Source of the DNA: Moraxellaceae bacterium
GTDB lineage: Bacteria > Pseudomonadota > Gammaproteobacteria > Pseudomonadales > UBA3067
Assembly (NCBI GenBank): GCA_002401525.1
Contig: NVTH01000216.1
Span: 1-10,783 of the forward strand
DNA length: 10,783 bases
Reading direction: 5' to 3'
Shown: piece by piece, positions 3 through 10,783 of the stretch
How the letters are laid out: each line of letters opens with the position of its first letter
Numbering within the stretch: position 1 is the first letter of the stretch
Notes under the pieces: generated by a model
What the model was told of the DNA's origin: nothing
What the model saw: the letters and a program-made list of their open reading frames with translations, nothing else
The model's database searches: none
Translations under genes and position numbers: made by a program

Positions 3-617
3 CCAGAGTTCCAAACCTACTGGATGTCACTGTTTTGGATACAGCTGGTAGTTATTTTCTCCTTTGGTGCATTCATAGTGCCTTATCTTTGGTTCACTCG
101 CGAAAAAGTACTCGATATATCCCCCCAGGAAGAATTAAATCGCTATTACATTATTCTTACAATTCTTTCTGTCGGCGGACTCGCACTCTATTTTGCATTG
201 AATCTATTTACTGAAGCCGACGCAGCTTGGCATCAAGTCACCATTCGCGACACCGACTTCACTCCGACCCATATCGTGCTTTTCTACGCCTTTATACCTC
301 TAATGGCGGTTGGCTTAGTGTTTGCCTTCATTTGGATTCACACGCGTATGCCTGATTACGTCGGCCGAGTATCTGCGCCCTTAGCAGTACTTGTAGCAGG
401 ACCTCTTTTGATCGGTCCAAACTTAGGCTACAACGAATGGGGCCATACATTTTTCTACGCAGAAGAATTATTTGGTGCACCCATTCACTGGGGCTTTGTC
501 ACCTTAGGCTGGGCTTTTCTAGCGCTGGCAGGATTTTTGTACCAATGCTTTGCTCGCATGGCTCGACTCACCGATTTGATAGGAGAAAATTACCTCGAAG
601 ACCCGATAAAAATGTAA
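3..617 (+). CDS. pmoC: Copper membrane monooxygenase subunit C (PmoC/AmoC-like), 5' partial
   Basis: Membrane subunit C of a particulate methane/ammonia/hydrocarbon monooxygenase, which inserts oxygen into a small apolar substrate using copper. The frame is open to the left edge (codons from position 3 read PEFQTYW before the Met at 24), so the true start lies upstream; about 204 codons are visible against roughly 250-290 for the family. Numbering from that Met, D66-x3-H70 and H83 match the spacing of the CuC ligands (Asp156, His160, His173 of Methylococcus PmoC), and N137-x3-H141 and H155 match the CuD ligands (Asn227, His231, His245). The core motif IRDTDFTPTH is at residues 74-83. Several hydrophobic membrane segments are evident. 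It is first in a C-A-B operon. Family assignment is firm; substrate (methane, ammonia or C2-C4 hydrocarbon) cannot be read from this subunit alone. Confidence 0.93.
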   Translation, partial: PEFQTYWMSLFWIQLVVIFSFGAFIVPYLWFTREKVLDISPQEELNRYYIILTILSVGGLALYFALNLFTEADAAWHQVTIRDTDFTPTHIVLFYAFIPLMAVGLVFAFIWIHTRMPDYVGRVSAPLAVLVAGPLLIGPNLGYNEWGHTFFYAEELFGAPIHWGFVTLGWAFLALAGFLYQCFARMARLTDLIGENYLEDPIKM

Positions 618-632
618 TTTAAGCACTTTAAT

Positions 633-690
633 AGTAATCGCCACCGACTCTATAACGCCAATATGAGTTATAGAGTCGGTGGCAATTATT
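633..690 (+). promoter_or_regulatory. Intercistronic hairpin between pmoC and pmoA
   Basis: The arms 640-656 (GCCACCGACTCTATAAC) and 667-683 are perfectly complementary over 17 bp around a 10-nt loop. After one C/A mismatch the stem continues for about 6 more pairs (633-638 with 685-690, one of them G-T). No T-run follows it, so it is a poor intrinsic terminator. An RNA-processing or mRNA-stabilising stem that lets pmoC be expressed at a different level from pmoAB is the likelier role (inference). Confidence 0.75.
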
Positions 691-710
691 GAAATCGCTC
701 ATACGATAAT

Positions 711-752
711 AAAAATAAAGTCCAAAAAAATAAAGTCCAAAAAAATAAAACC
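711..752 (+). repeat. Tandem 15-nt AT-rich repeat, about three copies
   Basis: Units at 711-723 (shortened), 724-738 and 739-752 (degenerate) share the core AAAAAAATAAAGTCC. It lies in the untranslated part of the pmoC-pmoA gap, directly 3' of the intercistronic hairpin. It looks like a slippage-type expansion; no function can be assigned. Confidence 0.75.
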
Positions 753-794
753 TAATCACTAATAACCAATAACTAGTAACTGATGAATAGTCAC
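753..794 (+). repeat. Degenerate 7-nt tandem repeat, six units
   Basis: The sequence splits into heptamers TAATCAC, TAATAAC, CAATAAC, TAGTAAC, TGATGAA and TAGTCAC, close to a TARTMAC consensus. The fifth unit is poor. The repeat directly follows the 15-nt repeats and ends 26 nt before the pmoA start. It could be chance in AT-rich DNA, a decayed slippage repeat or a protein-binding array. Confidence 0.5.
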
Positions 795-820
795 GTTGTC
801 AGATAGTTCTGGAGACTAAA

Positions 821-1630
821 ATGAGTTCAAGCTACCCACAAAATAAAACACCAAAAAAAGAGACAGGGATTTACAGCAGCGAAGTAAGAGAAGCCTCCTC
901 AGCCTTGACCACCATCGAGCAACAGATCAAGGCATACAAAACCATCGACTTTGCCACCATACCGGCGTTATTCCTCCTTTTTGGAGGCGTCTCTGTCTTT
1001 CTATTCGCTCTGACTGTTGGGGATTGGGATTTTTGGATGGATTGGAGGGACAGGCGCTGGTGGCCATTAGTCACACCATTCTCTCTTATTCTATTGCCTG
1101 CGGTATTGGGTGTTTTCATGTGGAACATGTTCCGACTTCCCATTGGAGCAACGTTTGCGGTCGCCAGTTTTCTAGTGGCATCCTGGGTCAGTAGGATAAT
1201 GAATTTCCATAATTTTGCGGGCTTTCCGCTCAATTTTGTTTCCCCTTCTACCTGGATTGGACTCGGAGTGCTCATTGACATCGTTTTACTGCTTACTAAA
1301 AGCTGGTTTGCAGCGGGTTTTATTGGTGCGTTTTTATTTGGCCTTCTCTCTTATACGATCAACTGGCCTATCTTTGCGCCCTACCGATTACCCGTCGAAT
1401 ATAACGACACCATGGTCTCAGTCGCTGATTTAATGGGCTACATGTACATTCGTACCGCCATACCGGAATACGTGCGAATTATCGAAGAAAGTACATTAAG
1501 GACCTTTGGCGAAGCAGTCACACCGCTCACCGCCATCTTTGCTGGCTTCGTGACCATACTCCATTACTACTTATGGGTTTGGGTCGGTAATAAAATTGTC
1601 GCCAGCGTGTGGATTCGAAAGGTTATCTAG
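821..1630 (+). CDS. pmoA: Copper membrane monooxygenase subunit A (PmoA/AmoA-like)
   Basis: Integral membrane subunit of a pMMO/AMO-superfamily monooxygenase. The diagnostic motif GDWDFWMDWRDRRWWP (residues 67-82, the region used for family-wide pmoA/amoA primers) and the C-terminal block from PVEYNDTMVS through RTAIPEYVRIIEESTLRTFG (191-230) are present, with several membrane spans between and after them. At 269 residues it is longer than the roughly 247 of Methylococcus PmoA, mainly through a polar N-terminal extension that puts the first motif about 20 residues later. A GGAGA ribosome site lies 5 nt before the ATG. Departures from methanotroph PmoA include VEYND instead of VEYNG, RTAIPEY instead of RTGTPEY, and TAIFAGF in the region that reads AFFSAF. 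These suggest a divergent clade, perhaps a hydrocarbon monooxygenase; that needs a tree. Confidence 0.94.
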   Translation: MSSSYPQNKTPKKETGIYSSEVREASSALTTIEQQIKAYKTIDFATIPALFLLFGGVSVFLFALTVGDWDFWMDWRDRRWWPLVTPFSLILLPAVLGVFMWNMFRLPIGATFAVASFLVASWVSRIMNFHNFAGFPLNFVSPSTWIGLGVLIDIVLLLTKSWFAAGFIGAFLFGLLSYTINWPIFAPYRLPVEYNDTMVSVADLMGYMYIRTAIPEYVRIIEESTLRTFGEAVTPLTAIFAGFVTILHYYLWVWVGNKIVASVWIRKVI

Positions 1631-1639
1631 TAAACAACA

Positions 1640-1662
1640 TTATTGAGAACACTTTCTAATAA
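1640..1662 (+). promoter_or_regulatory. Small AT-rich hairpin between pmoA and pmoB
   Basis: TTATT-AGAA pairs with TTCT-AATAA across a 4-nt loop, with one bulged G at 1645. It is a weak 9-bp AT-rich stem within the 66-nt pmoA-pmoB spacer. It may be chance, but it gives the operon a stem in both spacers. Confidence 0.3.
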
Positions 1663-1696
1663 CAAAAATAATTTAACAAATTTCTAGGCGGATCGT

Positions 1697-2944
1697 ATGT
1701 GGAAATTAAAAACCAAAATTTTACCTCGTCTGATGGCGAGCCTATTACTGTTTTGTCTGAGCGACCTTGCTCTTGCCCATGGGGAAAGAGCACAACAAGC
1801 TGGATTACGAACTCGAACCATTCAATGGTTTGATACCGAAGTTTATCCAAGAAACGCAAAAATCAATGAAATCGTCACCGTCAAGGGTAGATTTATACCC
1901 TCTAAATGGTGGCCCAAACACATGGCCCAACCCGATGGATTAGAGGGTGCGGCTTACCTCAACGTCGGCGTCCCAGGGCCTGTGTTCGTGCGTGTAGATT
2001 CCAGAGTCAATGGAGTCCCCATGATTCGTTCCACCACCTTCGAAAAAGGCAGGGAATACGAATACGAAATTAAATTAAAAGCGAGACGACCTGGTAAGTA
2101 CCATGTCCATCCCGTCATTAGCATTCGAGATGCAGGCCCCATCATTGGCCCTGCCTATTGGGTGGAAGTCACCGGTGATCCAGCGGACTTTGAAAATAAG
2201 ATCGAAACATTGACCGGTCAAGTGATCGATCTAGAAACCTGGGGAATGGACAATACTATTTTCTGGCATACCTGCTGGTTCTTAGTGTTTGTAGCATGGA
2301 TAGGGTACTGGTTCCGAAAGCTACCGGTATTGATGCCACGCTATAAGAAGGTCATGGTACTGGGAGAGGATGCTGATCAGCTAATCGAATTCAAAGACAT
2401 GGTGGTGGGCGCCGTATTCTTTGTCTTTATACTCACCGCCATCGGAGGCTCCTACCTATGGGCACAAAACGAATACCCCATTACCATCCCGTTGCAAACA
2501 GGGGAAGTTGAAGTCATTCCGTTGCCTGAACCTCCTGTAATCGCTGAAGTAAAAGTGAATAAGGCAAGATACAGAATCCCAGGCCGAAGCTTTAAGTTGG
2601 ATCTGACTGTCACCAATCACGGAGACTCCCCCATTCAGGTAGGCGCATTTTACATTGGTGGAATACGCTTTATGAATCCGAAAATCATTACCGGTGCGAT
2701 CAAGGAAGAAAAAGGTGACCTGATAGCGCCCGACGGCCTCACCGTTAATACACCACCGATACAACCTGGAGAAACTAGAGACATTGTGGTCTTTGCAGAC
2801 GATGCACTCTGGGAAACTTATCGACTCACTAGCTTAATCTACGATCCTGACAGCCGCTTTGCAGGGTTGTTAATGTTCTACGACGAAGAAGGCAATCGAT
2901 ATATCAAAGAAATAGGCGGCGGCATGGTACCGGTATTCACCTAA
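1697..2944 (+). CDS. pmoB: Copper membrane monooxygenase subunit B (PmoB/AmoB-like)
   Basis: Periplasmic copper subunit of the same monooxygenase. An N-terminal signal peptide ends in LALA before HGE, so the His at residue 28 becomes the mature N-terminus, as in PmoB. H28, H136 and H138 (KYHVHP) correspond to the CuB ligands His33, His137 and His139 of Methylococcus PmoB. Domain order is N-terminal cupredoxin (about 28-180), membrane helices at about 186-206 and 234-256, and a C-terminal cupredoxin-like domain (about 265-415). Length 415 is almost the same as the 414 of Methylococcus PmoB. The ATG follows an AGGCGG ribosome site 5 nt away, and the gene lies 66 nt after pmoA. It is the last gene of the operon: a strong terminator follows and no pmoD-like gene is seen. 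Confidence 0.94.
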   Translation: MWKLKTKILPRLMASLLLFCLSDLALAHGERAQQAGLRTRTIQWFDTEVYPRNAKINEIVTVKGRFIPSKWWPKHMAQPDGLEGAAYLNVGVPGPVFVRVDSRVNGVPMIRSTTFEKGREYEYEIKLKARRPGKYHVHPVISIRDAGPIIGPAYWVEVTGDPADFENKIETLTGQVIDLETWGMDNTIFWHTCWFLVFVAWIGYWFRKLPVLMPRYKKVMVLGEDADQLIEFKDMVVGAVFFVFILTAIGGSYLWAQNEYPITIPLQTGEVEVIPLPEPPVIAEVKVNKARYRIPGRSFKLDLTVTNHGDSPIQVGAFYIGGIRFMNPKIITGAIKEEKGDLIAPDGLTVNTPPIQPGETRDIVVFADDALWETYRLTSLIYDPDSRFAGLLMFYDEEGNRYIKEIGGGMVPVFT

Positions 2945-2966
2945 CCATCCAGTCATCTTAGCAATC

Positions 2967-3006
2967 AAAAAAGGGCCATTCTAAACATTAGAATGGCCCT
3001 TTTTTT
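2967..3006 (+). terminator. Rho-independent terminator after pmoCAB, symmetric
   Basis: An 18-bp perfect stem (2967-2984 with 2988-3005) contains AAGGGCCATTCTAA around a 3-nt ACA loop and ends in a run of T. A run of A precedes the 5' arm, so it should also stop transcripts arriving from the convergent lipoprotein operon on the minus strand. Confidence 0.93.
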
Positions 3007-3119
3007 ACCCATTATTTTTAACTCAGCACATAAAATGGTTCACTCGTCATGCTGATATTCCCAGACTTAATCAAAGCGCCGATTATACCAAACCTGATCG
3101 AGCGATCGCCCCAAAAAAT

Positions 3120-3710
3120 TTATCGAGTAACGGTTTCTATGGCAGGAAGCAAGATCACACTTTCGCCACCACTTATGCTAACAATACCGCTCTTATTGCT
3201 GCTCACCGACCTAGAATTTTTGATTTGCTGAGAGGAACCCGCGTAAATAGCCATTGCAAATGCCCTGTCTCGAGCCTGCCCGCCAGACACGAGCCTAGTG
3301 TGAATATTTAAGTAATATTTGCCAGCACTGAAGGCTTGTACTGCAACAGGGATAGTCACTGTTTGTCCGGCCGTCACCGACTGAACGACTTCGATATCCG
3401 AGTCACCCAAAAGAATACTTTCCGGAGCAGAAATGGTAACGCTCAGCTCTCCTGCAGATTGCGCCACCAGCTGTATTTCAAATGGCTCTTCTTCCCCCAA
3501 TTCAGTGGTGCCATCATAGTTGCTCGAAAACCCAACGGCCGCGCCAGGTTTCTGATAGCCCCCAGCAGTTTGCATCGTCTTATGATCAACACTCACTGGA
3601 CTAACGCTAATGCTCGCCGGTGAACAGGCCCCTAAAATCAATCCAGCAGAAACAACAGCGGAGAGAGAGAGGGAACGTACTAAAAAATATTTACTGTCAA
3701 AATTCATCAT
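3120..3710 (-). CDS. Small predicted lipoprotein of unknown function
   Basis: I do not recognise the family. The protein (about 196 residues) begins with a basic/hydrophobic signal sequence ending in a lipobox, LILGAC, with Cys29 as the lipidation site. The residue after it is Ser rather than Asp, which favours outer-membrane sorting. The mature part looks all-beta: alternating strands around 75-155 include a GKYYLNIHTRL stretch, resembling an Ig-like or adhesin-accessory sandwich, and the C-terminus is Ser/Gly/Val-rich. The frame also has a TTG at 3713; the tandem ATGs at 3710 and 3707 sit 4 and 7 nt after a TAGG ribosome site that overlaps the upstream stop codon. It is separated from the upstream lipoprotein gene by only 8 nt, so the two are almost certainly co-transcribed and translationally coupled. 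Confidence 0.75.
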   Translation of the reverse strand: MMNFDSKYFLVRSLSLSAVVSAGLILGACSPASISVSPVSVDHKTMQTAGGYQKPGAAVGFSSNYDGTTELGEEEPFEIQLVAQSAGELSVTISAPESILLGDSDIEVVQSVTAGQTVTIPVAVQAFSAGKYYLNIHTRLVSGGQARDRAFAMAIYAGSSQQIKNSRSVSSNKSGIVSISGGESVILLPAIETVTR

Positions 3711-3718
3711 CAAACCTA

Positions 3719-5398
3719 TTAATTTACTTCAAATTCAAAACAAACATCCCCGGACTGAGAATCATCCATATTACCGTATTCAAAAATTTCAATAATGTGA
3801 ACGCCTGCCGTTAACGAAAACAGTTTTTCCTCGGAGTTTTCCTCCATGCTACCCGCATAGTCAACCAACGCTCCGTTCCTCCATACACCGAAATCAGGAT
3901 CAGAAGGATCCATTCCCGACACCCGGTTCACTGATAACGAATAAGAAGCACTGCTACTAATCGTCAATTCTACAAATTGAGTATTGCCTAGCTTATTGAA
4001 CACCCCAAAATCGTTAATACTGCAAACCTCAACAGCGGGCCCGCCTACCGAAACAGTTTTATAGAGAGGGAGCACCGAGGGTTTTCCACCGTCATTGGTC
4101 TCATCGGTCGCCTTAGCATCAATGACCGTAATGTCTTGCTGATTGGCCAATGCATCCACTTCGGCACTTAAATTAGGAAACTGGGCTTTAAGCTCACTTA
4201 AAAACAAATGAATGCCTGTCATGGTGCTGGAATTCTTAAAGGCCGCAGAAGTCACCACCGAATAGAATTCAAAAAAAGCGTTATCAATGGTATCAACCCC
4301 ATCATCCACACTATTGGAGTCATAAAGATCGTATAAAATAGACTGCACCGATGACTCGCTATACCAGCCTGGAACGAAAACCACATTCTCTTCCAAATCA
4401 AACGTAAAACCGCGCAACTGGCCATCACCTAGGCTGTCGACATAAATAGGGTCATCCAATACCATTCCAGAAAACGCATTCCCCGCACCCTCGGAATAAG
4501 CGACTCGGAAATCGAGTAAATCCCCGCCGCCATGCGGCCCACCGATGGAATCTGTTCGAGAGAAATTATCTTCAAAGTAATGCCAAAATTCGTGGGCAAT
4601 GACGTGTTGATCGTATTCGTCCGTGTCATCATTTTCCCGCCCTAGCAAATAGATATACTTCGAATCAGGGTCGTAGAAACTTGAAGCAATATCCCCTTCA
4701 GCAAGATCGCCAAGGGTCGTGTTATTTAACGTACTCCATCGTAATTCGGTGCTGACAAAATCTGCCGCACTATCCACTGAGGTAATTAATTGAATCGAAT
4801 CGTAGACCGTATCGAGAATCGCAAAAGGAGCCGCCGATCGAACCGCTGAATAGTTCTCCCCGCCCCATCCCGAAGCTGCGTGTAAATCACGGCTAGAGTC
4901 GTCACTGCTACTAGTAAGGTTTGCACCCTGTAAAACATATAAGGCATCGTCATTAGTATTATCCGTGACGCTAAAATCCCAAGAGGCATTGCCAGTCGAC
5001 AGCAATCTCGCCTTGACTCGAACACTCACCTCAACATTGGCCTCAACATCATCAAAACGGTACTCACCCACACTGTTAGTAATACTGCTCTTCAGTTCTT
5101 CACTGCATTGATCAAGCAAAACCACTTCAACCCCTCTAGCGGGCTTAGCAATCATCGCATCGTAATCTAAAGCGCTGCCTCTCGTTCGATGCGGGACAAA
5201 ATCAAAACTAACGACCCCTGAAATAGCAACCGCATCCCCTGGAGCACTAGACTCTTCAACGACGCACTCCTCGACAACAAATTCGCTCGAATTAAGATTC
5301 AACGGCGGAGAACTACTGCCCCCGCAAGCGGCGAGATATAAAATCGAGATAAATACAATGAATAAACGAGGCATAAAGCGAAATATCGTGAGCAACAT
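3719..5398 (-). CDS. Predicted lipoprotein with zincin-like (HEFWH) domain
   Basis: Probably a surface or periplasm-facing lipid-anchored metallopeptidase-like protein of 559 residues. The hydrophobic leader ends in LAAC (Cys25), followed by GGSSS, compatible with outer-membrane sorting. Residues about 57-135 look like a carboxypeptidase-regulatory-type beta-sandwich (KPARGVEVVLLD ... SVGEYRFDDVEANVEV). A central domain holds VIAHEFWHYFED, giving H269-E270-x2-H273, and AYSEGAGN, where E303 could be the third zinc ligand about 30 residues later. The last ~120 residues form another beta domain resembling pre-peptidase C-terminal (PPC) folds. Translation from the ATG at 5398 is preferred over the in-frame TTG at 5407, because a GGAAGAG ribosome site lies 9 nt before the ATG. 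Peptidase activity and substrate are inferred only from the motif. The partner lipoprotein follows 8 nt downstream. Confidence 0.82.
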   Translation of the reverse strand: MLLTIFRFMPRLFIVFISILYLAACGGSSSPPLNLNSSEFVVEECVVEESSAPGDAVAISGVVSFDFVPHRTRGSALDYDAMIAKPARGVEVVLLDQCSEELKSSITNSVGEYRFDDVEANVEVSVRVKARLLSTGNASWDFSVTDNTNDDALYVLQGANLTSSSDDSSRDLHAASGWGGENYSAVRSAAPFAILDTVYDSIQLITSVDSAADFVSTELRWSTLNNTTLGDLAEGDIASSFYDPDSKYIYLLGRENDDTDEYDQHVIAHEFWHYFEDNFSRTDSIGGPHGGGDLLDFRVAYSEGAGNAFSGMVLDDPIYVDSLGDGQLRGFTFDLEENVVFVPGWYSESSVQSILYDLYDSNSVDDGVDTIDNAFFEFYSVVTSAAFKNSSTMTGIHLFLSELKAQFPNLSAEVDALANQQDITVIDAKATDETNDGGKPSVLPLYKTVSVGGPAVEVCSINDFGVFNKLGNTQFVELTISSSASYSLSVNRVSGMDPSDPDFGVWRNGALVDYAGSMEENSEEKLFSLTAGVHIIEIFEYGNMDDSQSGDVCFEFEVN

Positions 5399-5843
5399 CC
5401 GTAACAACTCTTCCTATAATTATTGATTTTTGGAATACCGATCTAGGTCATCCCGGACTCGGATTATCCCATACTTCAGCGGCCCACATTTGTTAAATAT
5501 GGATGGCTTTTAGTGGCTCTAATTTACATAACATTACTGGAGGGTATAAAACCAAGCTACAGTGTAATTTCTGCATTGTGACTCAAGCACTAAACCAAGC
5601 GCGCCGATCACCCATAGATAATGGCAAGAACTTGACCTCAAAATGTCTTTAAATCAAATACCTAGTGGTTAATTGAGCGTAAAAACCCCGTCAATCCAAG
5701 CATCGCCTATACTCAGCTAACCACACCAATTTGGATTCTTTATCGCTAGGCGCGATAAGGCACGCCGCGCCTTTTAGGTTGAGCTCAGCGGGATTGCTGA
5801 CCTTAGCAATATTCCACTTTTCCGCTTGGGTAAAAAATACCTT
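5399..5843. other. Divergent intergenic region, 445 nt
   Basis: It separates the lipoprotein operon (-) from the radical SAM operon (+), so it should carry promoters for both. I find no convincing ORF or RNA gene. A TTGACC at 5632-5637 could be a -35 element for the rightward operon, but the AT-rich sequence about 17 nt later is a poor -10, so no promoter is called. The last 110 nt hold a cluster of stems listed separately. Confidence 0.6.
5738..5806 (+). promoter_or_regulatory. Stem-rich leader before the radical SAM gene
   Basis: The first hairpin pairs CTTTATCGC (5738-5746) with GCGATAAGG (5752-5760), nine pairs with one wobble and a 5-nt loop. The second pairs AAGGC (5757-5761) with GCCTT (5769-5773) and is followed by two more T. 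The two share 5757-5760, so they exclude each other, as in attenuators. A third imperfect stem uses CAGC and GCTG at about 5786-5800, with AGGT/ACCT outside. The stems are short, so a regulatory role is only a possibility. Confidence 0.35.
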
Positions 5844-6710
5844 ATGGAACCCATAAAATTAAGGCCTGCAATTGAAGTACGGGAGATTGATAAATTTCAC
5901 TTTGAACTAGTGCATGGGTGTCAACTGCGCTGCGTTGGCTGCCCTATTTCAACCCTAAAACCAAAAGTAAAACACACCCCAGTCGATGTGTTTGAGCAAT
6001 GCATGCTCAATGTCGACGTCCAGTTAATAAGGTATCTTCGTTTATTTAATTTCGGAGAAACCTTGCTGCACCCGCAACTTGCCGATTGCTTTGACGTCCT
6101 ACAACGGCTGCCTTACAAAATTGGCCAAGTAGAAATCTCCACCAATGGCCAGCATGCCTATTGGGATGACCTAAAGGATGTTTTTAAATCTGGACGCTTG
6201 GACATTTTAGCCGTCAGCTGCGATGGCGATGGCAGCGCAGAAGAATATGAACGACTTCGTCCCCCGGGAAAGTGGAGTAAATTAATTGAGTTTCTAAAAA
6301 CAGCGAAAGACTTACAACTCCAATACGCGCCCAATATGAAATTACTCACTCGCACTATTTGTACGGACCCCTCCGATCAAGCGCGTTGGTCAGCAATCTT
6401 AACCCCCCTCGGTTGGCAACCCGAATTTAGAGGCTGGCTATCACTCCCTGAGAGTATTGAAAACTTAGGCAACCAAGGCCAATTCCCACAAAATGTGTGC
6501 CGCTACTTACAACGACTCAACAGCCTCTACGTCGACTGGGACGGGACCGTGATCCCTTGCTGCGCCCATCCCAATGCAGGTCAATTTGGCAGTCTAAAAA
6601 CCGACACCTTTAACTCCATAGTGAATGGATTCCAACGCCAAGACATGTCAACCACCATGCAACACGGCCGAAAAAAAATGGCCATTTGCGGGCAATGCGG
6701 AATGACATAA
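5844..6710 (+). CDS. Radical SAM protein with SPASM-like C-terminus
   Basis: Radical SAM enzymes reductively cleave S-adenosylmethionine at a [4Fe-4S] cluster to start radical chemistry. From the ATG at 5844 (288 residues), HGCQLRCVGCP supplies C26-x3-C30-x2-C33, the cluster-binding CX3CX2C motif. FNFGET (69-73) is the usual glycine-rich/Glu motif after strand 2, and STNG (99-102) follows strand 3. The C-terminus resembles a SPASM or Twitch region binding an auxiliary cluster: C219, then VDWDGTVIPCCAHP with C239 and C240, then C282 and C285 near the end. An in-frame TTG at 5826 is an alternative start; neither has a clear ribosome site. The substrate is unknown: SPASM proteins act on peptides, sugars or other small molecules. 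A methyltransferase gene follows 34 nt later, so the two probably act in one pathway. Confidence 0.88.
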   Translation: MEPIKLRPAIEVREIDKFHFELVHGCQLRCVGCPISTLKPKVKHTPVDVFEQCMLNVDVQLIRYLRLFNFGETLLHPQLADCFDVLQRLPYKIGQVEISTNGQHAYWDDLKDVFKSGRLDILAVSCDGDGSAEEYERLRPPGKWSKLIEFLKTAKDLQLQYAPNMKLLTRTICTDPSDQARWSAILTPLGWQPEFRGWLSLPESIENLGNQGQFPQNVCRYLQRLNSLYVDWDGTVIPCCAHPNAGQFGSLKTDTFNSIVNGFQRQDMSTTMQHGRKKMAICGQCGMT

Positions 6711-6744
6711 TAACCTTGAAACCGGCACGGATAATCAAACCCTT

Positions 6745-7410
6745 ATGTCAGATCTCTATCAATACTTTCAAAATAATCCCGGTCGACTGATTCATAAATG
6801 GTTGCACTACTTTCCAATCTACGAACACCACTTCGCGCGCTTCAGAAACAAACCCGTGACACTGCTGGAATTTGGGGTGTTTCACGGCGGATCTTTGCAA
6901 ATGTGGAAACAATATTTAGGCCCCCAAGCCAAAATTATCGGCGTCGACATCGACCCGCAATGCAAAGCCCTTGAGGAAGAACAAATCGAGATTATTATTG
7001 GCGATCAAGACAACCGGCAATTTCTAGCGGACTTAGGCAATTCCATTGCGCCGATTGACATCTTAATCGATGACGGCGGGCATCGCATGAGTCAGCAAAT
7101 TGCCACCTTTGAGGAACTTTACAGTAAAGTAGCAGCGAACGGGGTTTACCTCTGTGAAGACACCATGACCAGCTATTGGAATCGCCACGGCGGTGGCTAT
7201 CGCAACCCTAACTCATTTATCGAGTACAGCAAAAATCTAGTGGACTTATTGCATGCCTGGCACTCCAAAGACCAAGAAAGCTTTAACGTCACACCCTTTA
7301 CTCAAATGACAGATTCAATTCATTTTTATAACAGCGTCGTCGCCATCGAAAAAGCCCCGCAGCAACCACCCTCACATCAAAAAACAGGCACACTCTCTTT
7401 CTCTAACTAA
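6745..7410 (+). CDS. Class I SAM-dependent methyltransferase (MycE/CmcI-like)
   Basis: A 221-residue Rossmann-fold methyltransferase. Motif I is LLEFGVFHGGS (40-50), the acidic strand-2 end is GVDID (66-70), IGDQ follows at 85-88, and IDDGGH (108-113) with YLCEDTMTSYW (135-145) matches the metal-dependent sugar/antibiotic O-methyltransferase group typified by MycE and CmcI-like proteins, where the acidic pair and His help bind a divalent metal and the substrate. The best guess is O-methylation of a sugar or small hydroxylated substrate (inference from motif resemblance). It starts 34 nt after the radical SAM gene without a strong ribosome site, and a large inverted repeat follows it. Codon and base use look like the neighbours. 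A glycan-modification role is plausible, but no glycosyltransferase is seen nearby. Confidence 0.85.
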   Translation: MSDLYQYFQNNPGRLIHKWLHYFPIYEHHFARFRNKPVTLLEFGVFHGGSLQMWKQYLGPQAKIIGVDIDPQCKALEEEQIEIIIGDQDNRQFLADLGNSIAPIDILIDDGGHRMSQQIATFEELYSKVAANGVYLCEDTMTSYWNRHGGGYRNPNSFIEYSKNLVDLLHAWHSKDQESFNVTPFTQMTDSIHFYNSVVAIEKAPQQPPSHQKTGTLSFSN

Positions 7411-7420
7411 ATTTAATTCC

Positions 7421-7471
7421 ATGCCTCAGAACACGCACAAAGAATTTTTCTTTCTGCGTGCTCTGAGGCAT
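7421..7471. terminator. Bidirectional terminator-like inverted repeat
   Basis: The 24-nt arms 7421-7444 and 7448-7471 pair at 22 of 24 positions around a TTT loop; the outer part includes ATGCCTCAGA/TCTGAGGCAT. It sits between the convergent methyltransferase and BVMO genes, where a shared terminator is expected. No long T-run follows on either strand, so termination may depend on the long stem or on other factors. Confidence 0.7.
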
Positions 7472-7522
7472 CCTGCTCGGCAACTAAAAATAGGGTTGGT
7501 TTGCTTCTGTCGTCCTTAGCGC

Positions 7523-9361
7523 TTAAGACTGAGCGACTTCTAACTCAAGCCCTTCAAGAGAGCCTTCTTCCCGCCAACTTTTCATCAATCTGAAAAACTC
7601 ATCGGAGCTGCCGCCGTAAAATCCGTCTTGACCGCTGCGCTCTCCGGGCTTGCCTTCATTATTATAATACCCAGGTGTACAGGCTTCGAAAAACCGAGTG
7701 CCCATGCGCGCTTTACTAATAATGGTTTCCACCCATTTCGCTTCAGCGGCTTCCGAGGCTTCCAGAGTCCGAATGTCATTGTCTATCGCATGCTTGACGG
7801 TGTACGCAATATTAATGCCCTGCTCACTTAAGGCATGAGGATAATTGGCAGTAAAAGCCGTCTGGGCCGTGCCCATAATAAACAGATTTGGAAATCCGCG
7901 ACTGTGCAGGCCGTGCAGGGTAGCAATTCCGCCGTCCCATTTTTCGCCCAAACTGATCCCGCCGCGACCGTAAATTTCATAACCCGCCCGACGCGTGTAA
8001 GCAGTGCCCACTTCAAACCCAGTGGAATAGATTAGGCAATCCACGGGGTACTCAACCCCCGCCACCACCACACCCTTCTCGGTGATGCGCTCTACGCCTT
8101 TGCCATCAGTATCGACAATGTGCACGCTGGGCTTATTGTACGTGGCAAGGTAATCGTCATGAAAACAGGGTCGTTTACAAAACTGACGATAATACGGCTT
8201 GAGCACCGCCGCATCGTCTTGATTAGCTACCTCGCCTTCCACTCGGCCCCTGATTTCCTCCATCTTAAGATGATCGGCTTTTTCCATCATTCCAAACAGC
8301 GCGTCGATATCCATCGCACCGTCAGTTTTTTTCTTTAACAACTCCATCATGTTGCCAACAATATCGGTCCAACCGTCATCGACTAAATCTTCCGACTCAA
8401 ATCCCCCACTAAGAAGGCTGTTAAAATTATTCATGCGATGTTGGTGCCAACCTGGCTCCAAGGTTTCCGCCCACTGCGTGTCGGTGGGTTTATTGTTTCT
8501 AAAATCGACCGAAGAAGGAGTTCGCTGAAACACAAATAATTCTTTCGCGCCTTCTCCTAAATGAGGCACACATTGCACCGCAGTTGCGCCTGTTCCAATA
8601 ATGCCCACGACTTTATCTTTTAGGCCATCTAGTTTGCCGTACATGTCGCCACCGGTGTAATCGTAATCCCAACGGCTGGTGTGAAAAGCATGGCCTTTGT
8701 ATTCTTGAATGCCGGGAATCCCCGGTAATTTAGGTTTATTAAGCGGTCCATTCGACATACAAACAAAGCGCGCACGCATCTTGTCGCCATGATTGGTTTC
8801 AACCGTCCACCGCGCAAAATCCTCATCCCAATTTAATTCCGTCACTTCAGTTTGAAAACAGGCGTCTTTATAAAGATCATATTTCTTACCAATGGCCTGA
8901 CTGTGAGCAAATATTTCATCGCCTTTAGAATATTTCTCGACCGGCATATAGCCCACTTCCTCTAACAGGGGCAAGTAAATATACGATTCAATATCACAGG
9001 CAATTCCTGGGTAGCGATTCCAATACCAAGTGCCTCCAAAATCCCCGCCTTTTTCAATCACGCGAATATCCTTCACCCCCGCCTCACGTAATCGTGCAGC
9101 GGCAAGCAGCCCCCCGAACCCTCCGCCAATAATCACCACATCCACTTCATCGCTTAATGGCGCTCGTTTAAAACCAGGTTCAACATAGGGATCATCCATG
9201 TACTGGGCAAACTGATCTTCAAACTGTAAATACTGTTCATTACCATCGTCACGGATTCGCTTATCTCGTTCCTCACGGTATTTTTCATTTAATTTATCAG
9301 CGTCAATTTCGGACTCTTGAGGTGCGGACGACGAGCCACTGTTGGTATCTTTTTGGGTCAT
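7523..9361 (-). CDS. Type I Baeyer-Villiger monooxygenase (flavin-dependent)
   Basis: A FAD- and NADPH-dependent enzyme that inserts oxygen next to a ketone carbonyl, giving an ester or lactone. It has 612 residues with a charged N-terminal extension of about 70. The FAD-binding Rossmann motif is [10 protein letters not shown] (75-84), followed by [15 protein letters not shown] (109-123), typical of BVMOs. The fingerprint FxGxxxHxxxW(P/D) is present as [12 protein letters not shown] (221-232), with Tyr in place of the first Phe. The NADPH Rossmann motif is [11 protein letters not shown] (253-263). Length and the [12 protein letters not shown] and [12 protein letters not shown] stretches recall the large-ketone or cyclopentadecanone-type group, though substrate cannot be read from motifs. 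The start is supported by AGGGGAT about 8-10 nt upstream. It is divergent from the SDR gene across 694 nt and lies about 4.5 kb from the CuMMO operon; it may oxidise a ketone derived from that enzyme's product (inference). Confidence 0.92.
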
Positions 9362-9535
9362 AGGTAGATCCCCTGATCATTTTCAAATAAATCTGGCAGT
9401 TAGATGGAAGAGCAGTGAATGATTTAAAAAAACAGCGTATTTACCGGACGAAACATCAATTTTACTTAGGCATCCTTACCTGAAGCATTCGCACGACGTC
9501 TATTCCACGCTGATCAATCAATAATTATTATTTTG

Positions 9536-9548
9536 ATGCTTGAAGCAT
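9536..9548. promoter_or_regulatory. Small palindrome ATGCTTGAAGCAT, possible operator
   Basis: Perfect 6-bp arms surround a central G. The half containing TGAAGCAT also occurs at 9481-9488, exactly 60 bp upstream. It could be a regulator half-site pair in the divergent BVMO-SDR promoter region, or chance. Confidence 0.25.
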
Positions 9549-9586
9549 ATTGCGTAATATTTATAGTAGGCGCTTTACTAGTTTGC

Positions 9587-9656
9587 TTTTATTGACTAGA
9601 TTTTACTGACTAATTTTTACTGACTAATTTTTACTGACTAATTTTTACTGACTATT
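9587..9656. repeat. 14-bp tandem repeat, five copies
   Basis: Units start at 9587, 9601, 9615, 9629 and 9643. The three middle copies are identical (TTTTACTGACTAAT); the first and last each differ at two positions. The repeat is non-coding, between the BVMO and SDR genes. Identical central copies with diverged ends suggest recent slippage expansion. The count may vary between strains. Confidence 0.93.
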
Positions 9657-9726
9657 TCATACATAACGACGGACACGAAATGAATTTTCGAAGTTAGCCT
9701 TTATAAATAGGAAGCTATTTTTTTAC

Positions 9727-9768
9727 ATTGAGAGTGAGCTTTTATAAATTGAGAGTGAGCTTTTATAA
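9727..9768. repeat. 21-bp perfect direct tandem duplication
   Basis: Copies at 9727-9747 and 9748-9768 are identical and share the core TTGAGAGTGAGCTTTTATAA. A partial relative of the 3' half (CTTTATAAAT) is seen at about 9698-9707. The duplication lies about 70 bp from the 14-bp repeat array, in the same divergent gap. Confidence 0.92.
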
Positions 9769-10055
9769 AACAGCAGACTAATCTTCTCCCTCATTAGATT
9801 GCATTTAAAAACGGAATTCAAATAATATTAATGGATTGTGATAAATTCGGCCAATAAGCTGTTTTTTATTGTCACCTTAGACCCAATTGCACAAACAAAA
9901 ACAACTAAAACACCTAAACATTTTCAATCCATAAAAAAACACTGCCGATTATCCTAACCAGGACATATACTGGCCCTAGAAGTTGAACATTGCTCACGAT
10001 CGAAGTTTTTAAAAAAATACCATCGAAAAACAAAAATATAATCAGGGAGCTAGCA

Positions 10056-10783
10056 ATGAATGAACTCAATGGAAAGGTGGCTTTCGTCACCGGTGGCGCC
10101 AGTGGTATCGGGTTTGGGATCGCCTCCGCACTGGTGGACGCCGGCGTTAAAATAGCGCTTGCTGACGTCGAATTGGGCGCCCTTAATAAGGCTGTCAAAG
10201 AGTTAAAAAGAAAGGGAGCCGACGTATTACGAGTCCACATCGACGTCACTGATCGTATTGCCTTAAATAATGCAGCGATCAAAGTCCAAAATCATTTTGG
10301 GAATATCCATATCCTGTGTAATAACGCCGGGGTCGCATCGGGCGGACCGATTCATAAAGCGTCCTACAAAGACTGGGACTGGGTATTAGGCGTTAACCTA
10401 GGGGGCGTTGTGAATGGTGTAATGACCTTTGTCAAATACATCAAAGCCCACGGCGAAGGCGGGCATATCGTTAATACCGCTTCATTAGCGGGCCATATGG
10501 CCGCACCTGGATTAGGCGTCTATAACACCAGCAAATTCGCCGTAGTGGGACTGTCTGAAACCCTGCGCGCCGACCTTGCTCAAGACAAAATCGGCGTATC
10601 CGTTTTATGCCCGGGCATAGTCTCGACTCAAATTCATAAAAGCACACGAAACCGCCCCCAAAAATTAGCCGATAAAAATTCAGTCGGGCTAATTGCTGGA
10701 GACGAGAAAAAAGCCGATGAATTAATGAAACAAGCGGATCAGCGAATGTATAGTGATAAAAATAAAAATAAAAATAAAAACTC
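10056..10783 (+). CDS. Short-chain dehydrogenase/reductase (SDR), 3' partial
   Basis: An NAD(P)-dependent oxidoreductase, most likely of an alcohol/ketone pair. From the ATG at 10056, which has a GGGAG ribosome site about 7 nt upstream, 242 codons are open to the window edge with no stop. TGGASGIG (12-19) binds the nucleotide. D37 at the end of strand 2 favours NAD over NADP. NNAG (89-92), N114, S143 (NTASLAG), Y156 and K160 (YNTSK) complete the classical catalytic tetrad, and PG (186-187) follows. It is divergent from the BVMO gene, so a role in the same pathway, supplying or consuming the ketone, is plausible (inference). The visible C-terminal end is odd: codons from 10758 are a hexanucleotide repeat encoding Lys-Asn pairs, where related SDRs continue with ordinary helical sequence. 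The true length cannot be seen. Confidence 0.9.
   Translation, partial: MNELNGKVAFVTGGASGIGFGIASALVDAGVKIALADVELGALNKAVKELKRKGADVLRVHIDVTDRIALNNAAIKVQNHFGNIHILCNNAGVASGGPIHKASYKDWDWVLGVNLGGVVNGVMTFVKYIKAHGEGGHIVNTASLAGHMAAPGLGVYNTSKFAVVGLSETLRADLAQDKIGVSVLCPGIVSTQIHKSTRNRPQKLADKNSVGLIAGDEKKADELMKQADQRMYSDKNKNKNKN
10758..10781 (+). repeat. In-frame hexanucleotide repeat (AAAAAT) inside the SDR gene
   Basis: Three AAAAAT units and one AAAAAC encode Lys-Asn repeats at the end of the visible SDR sequence. Six-base units keep the frame, so copy-number change would lengthen or shorten a Lys-Asn stretch without breaking the gene. The repeat may continue beyond the window edge. Confidence 0.8.

Follow-up and report, generated by a model that had tools for sequence, protein, structure and literature searches.

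A probable pHMO-type copper membrane monooxygenase operon in an uncultured Pseudomonadales-type bacterium, and its probable independence from a neighbouring Baeyer-Villiger monooxygenase

Do a copper membrane monooxygenase (CuMMO) operon and a Baeyer-Villiger monooxygenase (BVMO) gene on the same short contig belong to one pathway? The question is raised by the window analysed here, a stretch of 10,783 nucleotides that makes up the entire contig C118 of a metagenome-assembled genome (MAG) of a Moraxellaceae bacterium (G000; 3,370,091 bases, 250 contigs, 74% complete). It carries a pmoCAB operon and, further along, a BVMO gene divergent from a gene for a short-chain dehydrogenase/reductase (SDR), which the original prediction had joined in a subterminal oxidation of propane or butane. 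We conclude that the CuMMO is probably a hydrocarbon-oxidising enzyme of the particulate hydrocarbon monooxygenase (pHMO) type, coupled to a periplasmic alcohol route, and that the BVMO and SDR are most likely neighbours serving other ketone chemistry. Comparisons were made with a sister species of the same genus (G001, 89% complete), with three genomes of another genus (G002-G004), which complete the set of five family genomes, and with further genomes of the order. The genes at issue are as follows.

3..617, + strand: pmoC-type CuMMO subunit C, truncated at its 5' end where the contig begins (PF04896, 205 bits)
821..1630, + strand: pmoA-type CuMMO subunit A, 269 aa (PF02461, 251.6 bits)
1697..2944, + strand: pmoB-type CuMMO subunit B, 415 aa (PF04744, 438 bits)
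7523..9361, - strand: type I BVMO of 612 aa, closest to PtlE and 5mq6 (profile scores, motifs)
10056..10781, + strand: classical SDR (PF00106, 177.5 bits), truncated at its 3' end where the contig stops; the G001 orthologue has 303 aa

All the parts named in the original prediction are present, the three Pmo products match their families above the Pfam cut-offs, and the pmoB stop lies 4.6 kb and four genes from the BVMO end, as had been stated. All three subunits expected of the CuMMO superfamily are encoded, in the order pmoCAB; in the sister species (locus L047), pmoC and pmoA are full-length and pmoB is split in two pieces at an ambiguous base. PmoB has a signal-peptide-like start (by eye) followed by HGERAQ, and an HxH motif. 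Its Cu_B positions (N-terminal His, HxH) align with 3rgb_A, and the Cu_C/Cu_D positions of PmoC (D/H/H and N/H/H) align with 3rfr_C, both solved methane monooxygenases. We take these residues to have copper-ligand roles, and their predicted conservation was confirmed.

The affiliation of the enzyme was assessed from trees of each subunit. In a 61-row PmoA tree, the window sequence falls inside a 42-row clade (split support 100/99) with names including Solimonas, Sinimarinibacterium, Panacagrimonas, Hydrogenophaga, Nevskia, Porticoccaceae and Pseudomonadales, and the other 19 rows include methanotroph PmoA/PxmA, Nitrosomonas AmoA and actinobacterial HmoA, the last in a different clade from the window. 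A topology in which the three window-type rows were forced together with three Methylogaea-clade rows cost 162 log units and was rejected by the approximately unbiased (AU) test (p-AU 1e-10). The claim that this CuMMO stands outside the methanotrophs and nitrifiers was thus upheld against the methanotroph and Nitrosomonas rows tried. The PmoB and PmoC trees agree with this placement: PmoB (25 rows) lies in a 19-row clade supported at 100/100 with Sinimarinibacterium, Panacagrimonas and Nevskiales, and in the PmoC tree (16 rows) a 9-row clade (96/99) holds the window and its order relatives only.

These trees cover a defined sample. The PmoA tree used 43 of 236 PmoA matches, with HmoA, PmoA and AmoA from the reference set suggested earlier, and was built without Nitrosococcus, Nitrospira, alphaproteobacterial and verrucomicrobial sequences; one AmoA row (Burkholderiales AOB4) with two stops ahead of its start was retained, the stops being treated as gaps. 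The CuMMOs of G004 and G064 were left out of the trees. The PmoB tree is without G003, both G001 operons (genes read in pieces) and one Nitrosomonas AmoB, and the PmoC tree is without G002:C169 and G003 and contains no Solimonas-type row.

The same evidence bears on whether the enzyme is simply a methane or ammonia monooxygenase. Membership of the same superfamily, shared ligands and a PmoB that passes the thresholds of two NCBIfam models, AmoB_BACT and CH4_NH3mon_ox_B, would fit such an enzyme, but PmoA and PmoC (the latter truncated) score under the corresponding NCBIfam cut-offs, and the trees and AU test separate it from both groups. Fae, a protein of the C1 pathway, was found in none of the seven CuMMO genomes (two archaeal controls matched; G000 and G001 are 74% and 89% complete), which argues against C1 growth. 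As predicted, family scans of the window's nine proteins gave no match to a pyrroloquinoline quinone (PQQ) dehydrogenase or to hydroxylamine oxidoreductase (no genome-wide search for the latter was made), and tblastn revealed no PmoD-family gene in the window. We therefore consider a methane or ammonia monooxygenase extremely unlikely. Solimonas relatives are listed as of unknown function in the available parts of two sources (PMC8630023, PMC6215863), as is the Polaromonas CuMMO in the first of them, and because of this we infer the substrate of the window CuMMO, most likely small hydrocarbons.

The window operon is one of several. G000 carries three pmoA and three pmoB genes, in three divergent pmoCAB operons on C118 (the window), C163 and C129. 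The C129 operon (L014 9008-12668) is followed by a PmoD-family gene, a multicopper oxidase gene and a gene for a His/Met-rich protein; the product of the first of these is 42% identical to a protein encoded behind a Nitrosomonas amo operon, and from this match we presume that it belongs to the PmoD/AmoD family. Open reading frames like these trailing genes were seen by eye in G001, G002 and G003, and the arrangement is found again in the same three genomes, flanked by clpB- and ilv-type genes (by eye); the C129 operon therefore looks like the ancestral operon of the family and the window copy like an extra one. Among 14 CuMMO loci from the order (of which three, limited by contig ends, span 3.6, 8.0 and 11.6 kb), a PmoD-family gene is present in eight and absent from the three window-type loci (the window, G001:C112 and G002:C1) and from three C163-type loci (L013, L051 and L079, the last an 8 kb contig assigned by its missing PmoD gene and kinship to G024, not by tree). 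The counterparts of the window PmoA are 86% identical in G001 and 75% in G002, where the neighbouring genes are quite different. PF02461 is present in eight of 390 genomes of the order, including all five family members.

Three operons in one genome recall Methylacidiphilum, where one of three pmo operons, PMO3, acts on acetone according to the part of PMC8630023 available. Such an acetone- or ketone-oxidising paralogue seems very unlikely here: by eye, no glucose-methanol-choline (GMC) oxidoreductase or lactate dehydrogenase gene adjoins the operon in the window or in G001.

If the CuMMO forms alcohols, which enzyme takes them further? A 753 aa protein on G000:C85 matches type II quinohemoprotein alcohol dehydrogenase (ADH; 746 bits with 1kv9), as against 315 bits or less with methanol dehydrogenase chains. 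A quinohemoprotein ADH exceeds the TIGR03075 cut-off in four of the five family genomes (G000-G003) and in G024. In G001 it lies at 39.4 to 41.0 kb of the contig that carries the orthologous pmoCAB (pmoB ends near 5.0 kb), about 35 kb from pmoB; between the two, an acyl-activating gene of the AMP-binding type occupies roughly 32.4 to 34.2 kb, and G000:C85 is collinear with the ADH-bearing part of this contig, G001:C112. The active sites of quinohemoprotein ADHs and CuMMOs are expected at the periplasmic side, and an SDR is expected in the cytoplasm. We regard the quinohemoprotein ADH as a better candidate for the alcohol step than the SDR. Methylisocitrate lyase (PrpB) scores above its cut-off in four of the five family genomes, with a fragment only in G000. 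Soluble di-iron monooxygenases (PF02332) were found in none of eight genomes, yet no control matched either, so this search is uninformative.

In both G000:C85 (L075 2328-6234) and G001:C112 (L076 4007-8184), the ADH gene is followed by a gene for a LuxR-type regulator, which contains an autoinducer-binding domain (PF03472), and by an autoinducer synthase gene (PF00765). The arrangement suggests density-dependent control near alcohol oxidation.

In the route that we favour, the pmoCAB product would hydroxylate small hydrocarbons, most likely on the periplasmic side of the membrane. The most likely enzyme to act next on the alcohol would be the type II quinohemoprotein ADH encoded elsewhere in the genome, and the resulting acid would enter central metabolism, propionate by way of the methylcitrate cycle. 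The BVMO and SDR would serve other ketone chemistry, outside the hydrocarbon route. We favour this reading because all three subunits fall outside the rows of particulate methane monooxygenase (pMMO)/Pxm, Nitrosomonas ammonia monooxygenase and actinobacterial HMO, because of the distribution of Fae, quinohemoprotein ADH and PrpB given above, because of the precedent of Cycloclasticus as described in the accessible part of PMC12510462, and because the BVMO, closest to 5mq6, and the SDR have homologues in only two of the 14 CuMMO loci.

That last argument turns on whether the BVMO/SDR pair is tied to the operon at all. As first proposed, the CuMMO would yield a secondary alcohol, the SDR a ketone and the BVMO an ester. 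All three enzyme types are encoded within 10 kb, on different strands, and the sister species keeps the gene order, with a BVMO 89% and an SDR 90% identical (89-90% for the SDR). However, the genus is collinear elsewhere as well (C129/C69 and C85/C112 in G000/G001), so the conserved order is weak evidence for a link. The two CuMMO loci with BVMO and SDR homologues, the window and G001:C112, belong to this one genus, and the other 12 lack both genes; a fifteenth locus outside the count (L081, which has just a fragment of pmoA where its contig ends) has no BVMO or SDR either. Conversely, among 16 BVMO loci selected from the best matches, a CuMMO is present in one (G001) and absent from 15. SDR-query matches occur in four of these 15 (L016, L062, L063 and L069), none more than 35% identical to the window SDR or its orthologue, and another 15 of the 56 genomes surveyed have SDR relatives, at no more than 47% identity. 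The exact pair, with an orthologous SDR, was seen only in G000 and G001, both of which carry the operon. The survey of relatives did not yield the outcome that the original prediction had named as refuting, the pair in many relatives with no CuMMO nearby; both genes stand near two of 14 operons, in a single genus.

At genome level, close BVMOs occur in three of the seven CuMMO genomes among the 56 (G000, G001 and G024) and were not found in G002-G004 or G028. Five genomes (G012, G020, G030, G042 and G055) have a close BVMO without a CuMMO. Counted naively, co-occurrence mildly favours an association, with too few independent cases. Chance proximity is plausible: G000 has 11 distinct BVMO/FMO-type (flavin-containing monooxygenase) genes and G001 at least 15, with 37 and 50 SDR matches, respectively. 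Under uniform placement, which ignores clustering, the expected number of BVMO/FMO-type genes no more than 10 kb from any of the pmo operons is 0.23 in G000 and 0.15 in G001, and that of SDRs near one operon is about 0.25; BVMO and SDR jointly are less likely than either.

A subterminal route would also be expected to leave traces downstream, and here the proposed search of flanking sequence gave little. No esterase was seen by eye in the first 20 kb of G001:C112; near the SDR there is just a GDSL stretch, scoring under its cut-off, within a protein resembling fatty-acyl-AMP ligases. A search for esterase, acetol and acyl-CoA modules over 52 kb of this contig, mostly by eye, gave a DUF4442 gene (L048 1640-2140) and the AMP-binding gene described above (L048 12385-14205), both at a distance of more than 15 kb. 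Recurrent clustering of monooxygenase, ADH, BVMO and esterase genes was not seen among the 14 CuMMO loci beyond the two in this genus, and an unclustered pathway could still operate. Searches of the literature (titles and abstract starts of the papers listed in the broader search) found no description of a CuMMO-to-BVMO route. The CuMMO half of the proposed pathway holds and its BVMO/SDR half is weak; as a whole, the subterminal oxidation of propane or butane appears improbable. Distinctly doubtful, too, is a variant in which the window CuMMO has become specialised within the genus, apart from the sister operons of its genome, for subterminal attack on a C3-C5 or cyclic hydrocarbon, the SDR and BVMO making the ketone and then the ester or lactone. 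If true, it would constitute such a CuMMO-to-BVMO route.

What, then, might the BVMO and SDR act upon? The type I BVMO divergent from an NAD-type SDR was recovered as described: the two start 0.7 kb apart, a 10-residue motif of the BVMO is intact, and its Rossmann motifs GGGFGG and GTGATA flank the fingerprint. The fingerprint FxGxxxHxxxW(P/D) is present except for Y in place of the canonical first F, and because of this the strict pattern gives no match; the same Y occurs in seven of the 14 BVMO sequences compared, the window included. The SDR has TGGASGIG, NNAG and YNTSK motifs and, by eye, the Asp following beta-2 that is seen in NAD-type enzymes. Compared with solved chains (acetone monooxygenase, ACMO, and methyl ethyl ketone monooxygenase, MEKMO, lie outside this comparison), the BVMO is closest to 5mq6 (449.8 bits, nearly full length), as against 269 bits with phenylacetone monooxygenase and about 195 to 208 bits with cyclohexanone monooxygenases. 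We take 5mq6 to be PockeMO, an enzyme for polycyclic ketones. The nearest solved relatives of the SDR are 3ioy and C-alpha-dehydrogenases. These relatives, taken as bulky-substrate enzymes, give no pointer to C3/C4 substrates, though they are compatible with them, and they count as a further point against the subterminal route.

The genes between pmoB and the BVMO raise another alternative.

3120..3713, - strand: short lipoprotein-like protein (by eye), no family, with a 38% identical counterpart in G001
3719..5407, - strand: lipoprotein-like protein with HEFWH motif, metalloprotease-like (by eye), with a 52% identical counterpart in G001
5826..6710, + strand: radical SAM/SPASM protein (PF13186 and PF04055 above cut-off)
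6745..7410, + strand: Methyltransf_24-type methyltransferase (PF13578 above cut-off)

Together with the last two genes, which adjoin the BVMO gene, the BVMO and SDR might form part of a biosynthetic cluster (lipid, glycan or natural product) that abuts pmoCAB by chance. In G001 the SDR gene is followed by those for the fatty-acyl-AMP-ligase-like protein and a 671 aa methyltransferase-domain protein, and the NCBIfam matches include the biosynthetic pair PtlE (BVMO) and, weakly, PtlF (SDR). Both matches are under their cut-offs, however, with PtlF far down the SDR list, and several BVMO homologues in relatives sit in catabolic-looking surroundings, next to genes for acyl-CoA dehydrogenases, CaiB, crotonases and metallo-beta-lactamase (MBL)-type hydrolases (partly named by eye). 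We regard a biosynthetic cluster as unlikely, if less so than the other alternatives.

Several observations stand beside these. On G000:C173 (L016 3015-10332), a second PtlE-like BVMO gene, cut by the contig end, is clustered with genes for a crotonase, an acyl-CoA dehydrogenase, an amidohydrolase, an SDR and an MBL hydrolase, and the greater part of this cluster recurs in G001:C118. On G024:C104 (L051 6463-11630), pmoCAB is convergent with a gene for an amidohydrolase 79% identical to that of the C173 cluster, the only indirect link between a CuMMO and a BVMO cluster seen outside the genus. The two lipoprotein-like genes of the window (3120-5407) are fast-diverging, convergent with pmoB and retained in G001, and their products gave no family match over cut-off. 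At the contig edge (10737-10783), past the last position aligning with the G001 protein, the SDR frame ends in KNKNKN, a simple repeat that is possibly an assembly edge effect.

Several points weigh against a CuMMO coupled to a periplasmic alcohol route with the BVMO and SDR as bystanders. G004 and G028 carry a CuMMO and no ADH over the TIGR03075 cut-off; in G001 the operon and the ADH gene are more than 30 kb apart, and in G000 they are on separate contigs; and quinohemoprotein ADHs serve many alcohols. No clade member in the trees has a substrate proven in the sources consulted, and EmoA (Haliea), BmoA (Nocardioides) and Cycloclasticus sequences lie outside the tree sampling. The confinement of the exact BVMO-SDR pair to genomes with the operon points the same way. 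We nonetheless judge independence of the BVMO from the CuMMO most likely. A BVMO neighbour without expression data should not, in consequence, count as evidence of subterminal oxidation, and an uncultured Pseudomonadales-type lineage, with a CuMMO in all five family genomes, joins the candidates for small-hydrocarbon oxidation outside the methanotrophs.

How does the system compare with those already known? The CuMMOs of Solimonas aquatica, Sinimarinibacterium, Panacagrimonas and Hydrogenophaga/Nevskia MAGs share its 42-row PmoA clade, and those of Sinimarinibacterium, Panacagrimonas and Nevskiales its 19-row PmoB clade; the window PmoA is 53-56% identical to theirs and belongs to a Pseudomonadales sub-lineage of its own. 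The HmoCAB of actinobacteria (M. chubuense NBB4, Rhodococcus ZPP) is likewise a three-subunit CuMMO in the order CAB, but is distant in sequence (PmoA about 37% identical where the two match, separate clade), and its operons lie near an mdo gene for an N,N-dimethyl-4-nitrosoaniline (NDMA)-dependent methanol dehydrogenase. Against the PtlE model, the window BVMO scores 807 bits, below the equivalog cut-off of 1100. Methylacidiphilum PMO3 likewise shares its genome with two other pmo operons and has a specialised role there (PMC8630023, as far as available); unlike it, the window operon has no C3 gene cluster seen beside it, and the tree was built without PMO3. There is also a likeness in gene content, with no Cycloclasticus sequence in the trees and the PQQ-ADH here outside the window, to Cycloclasticus MAGs, for which the accessible text of PMC12510462 describes several divergent phmo copies, a PQQ-ADH and methylcitrate enzymes; the route favoured here resembles the one put forward there for Cycloclasticus in blooms on n-pentane.

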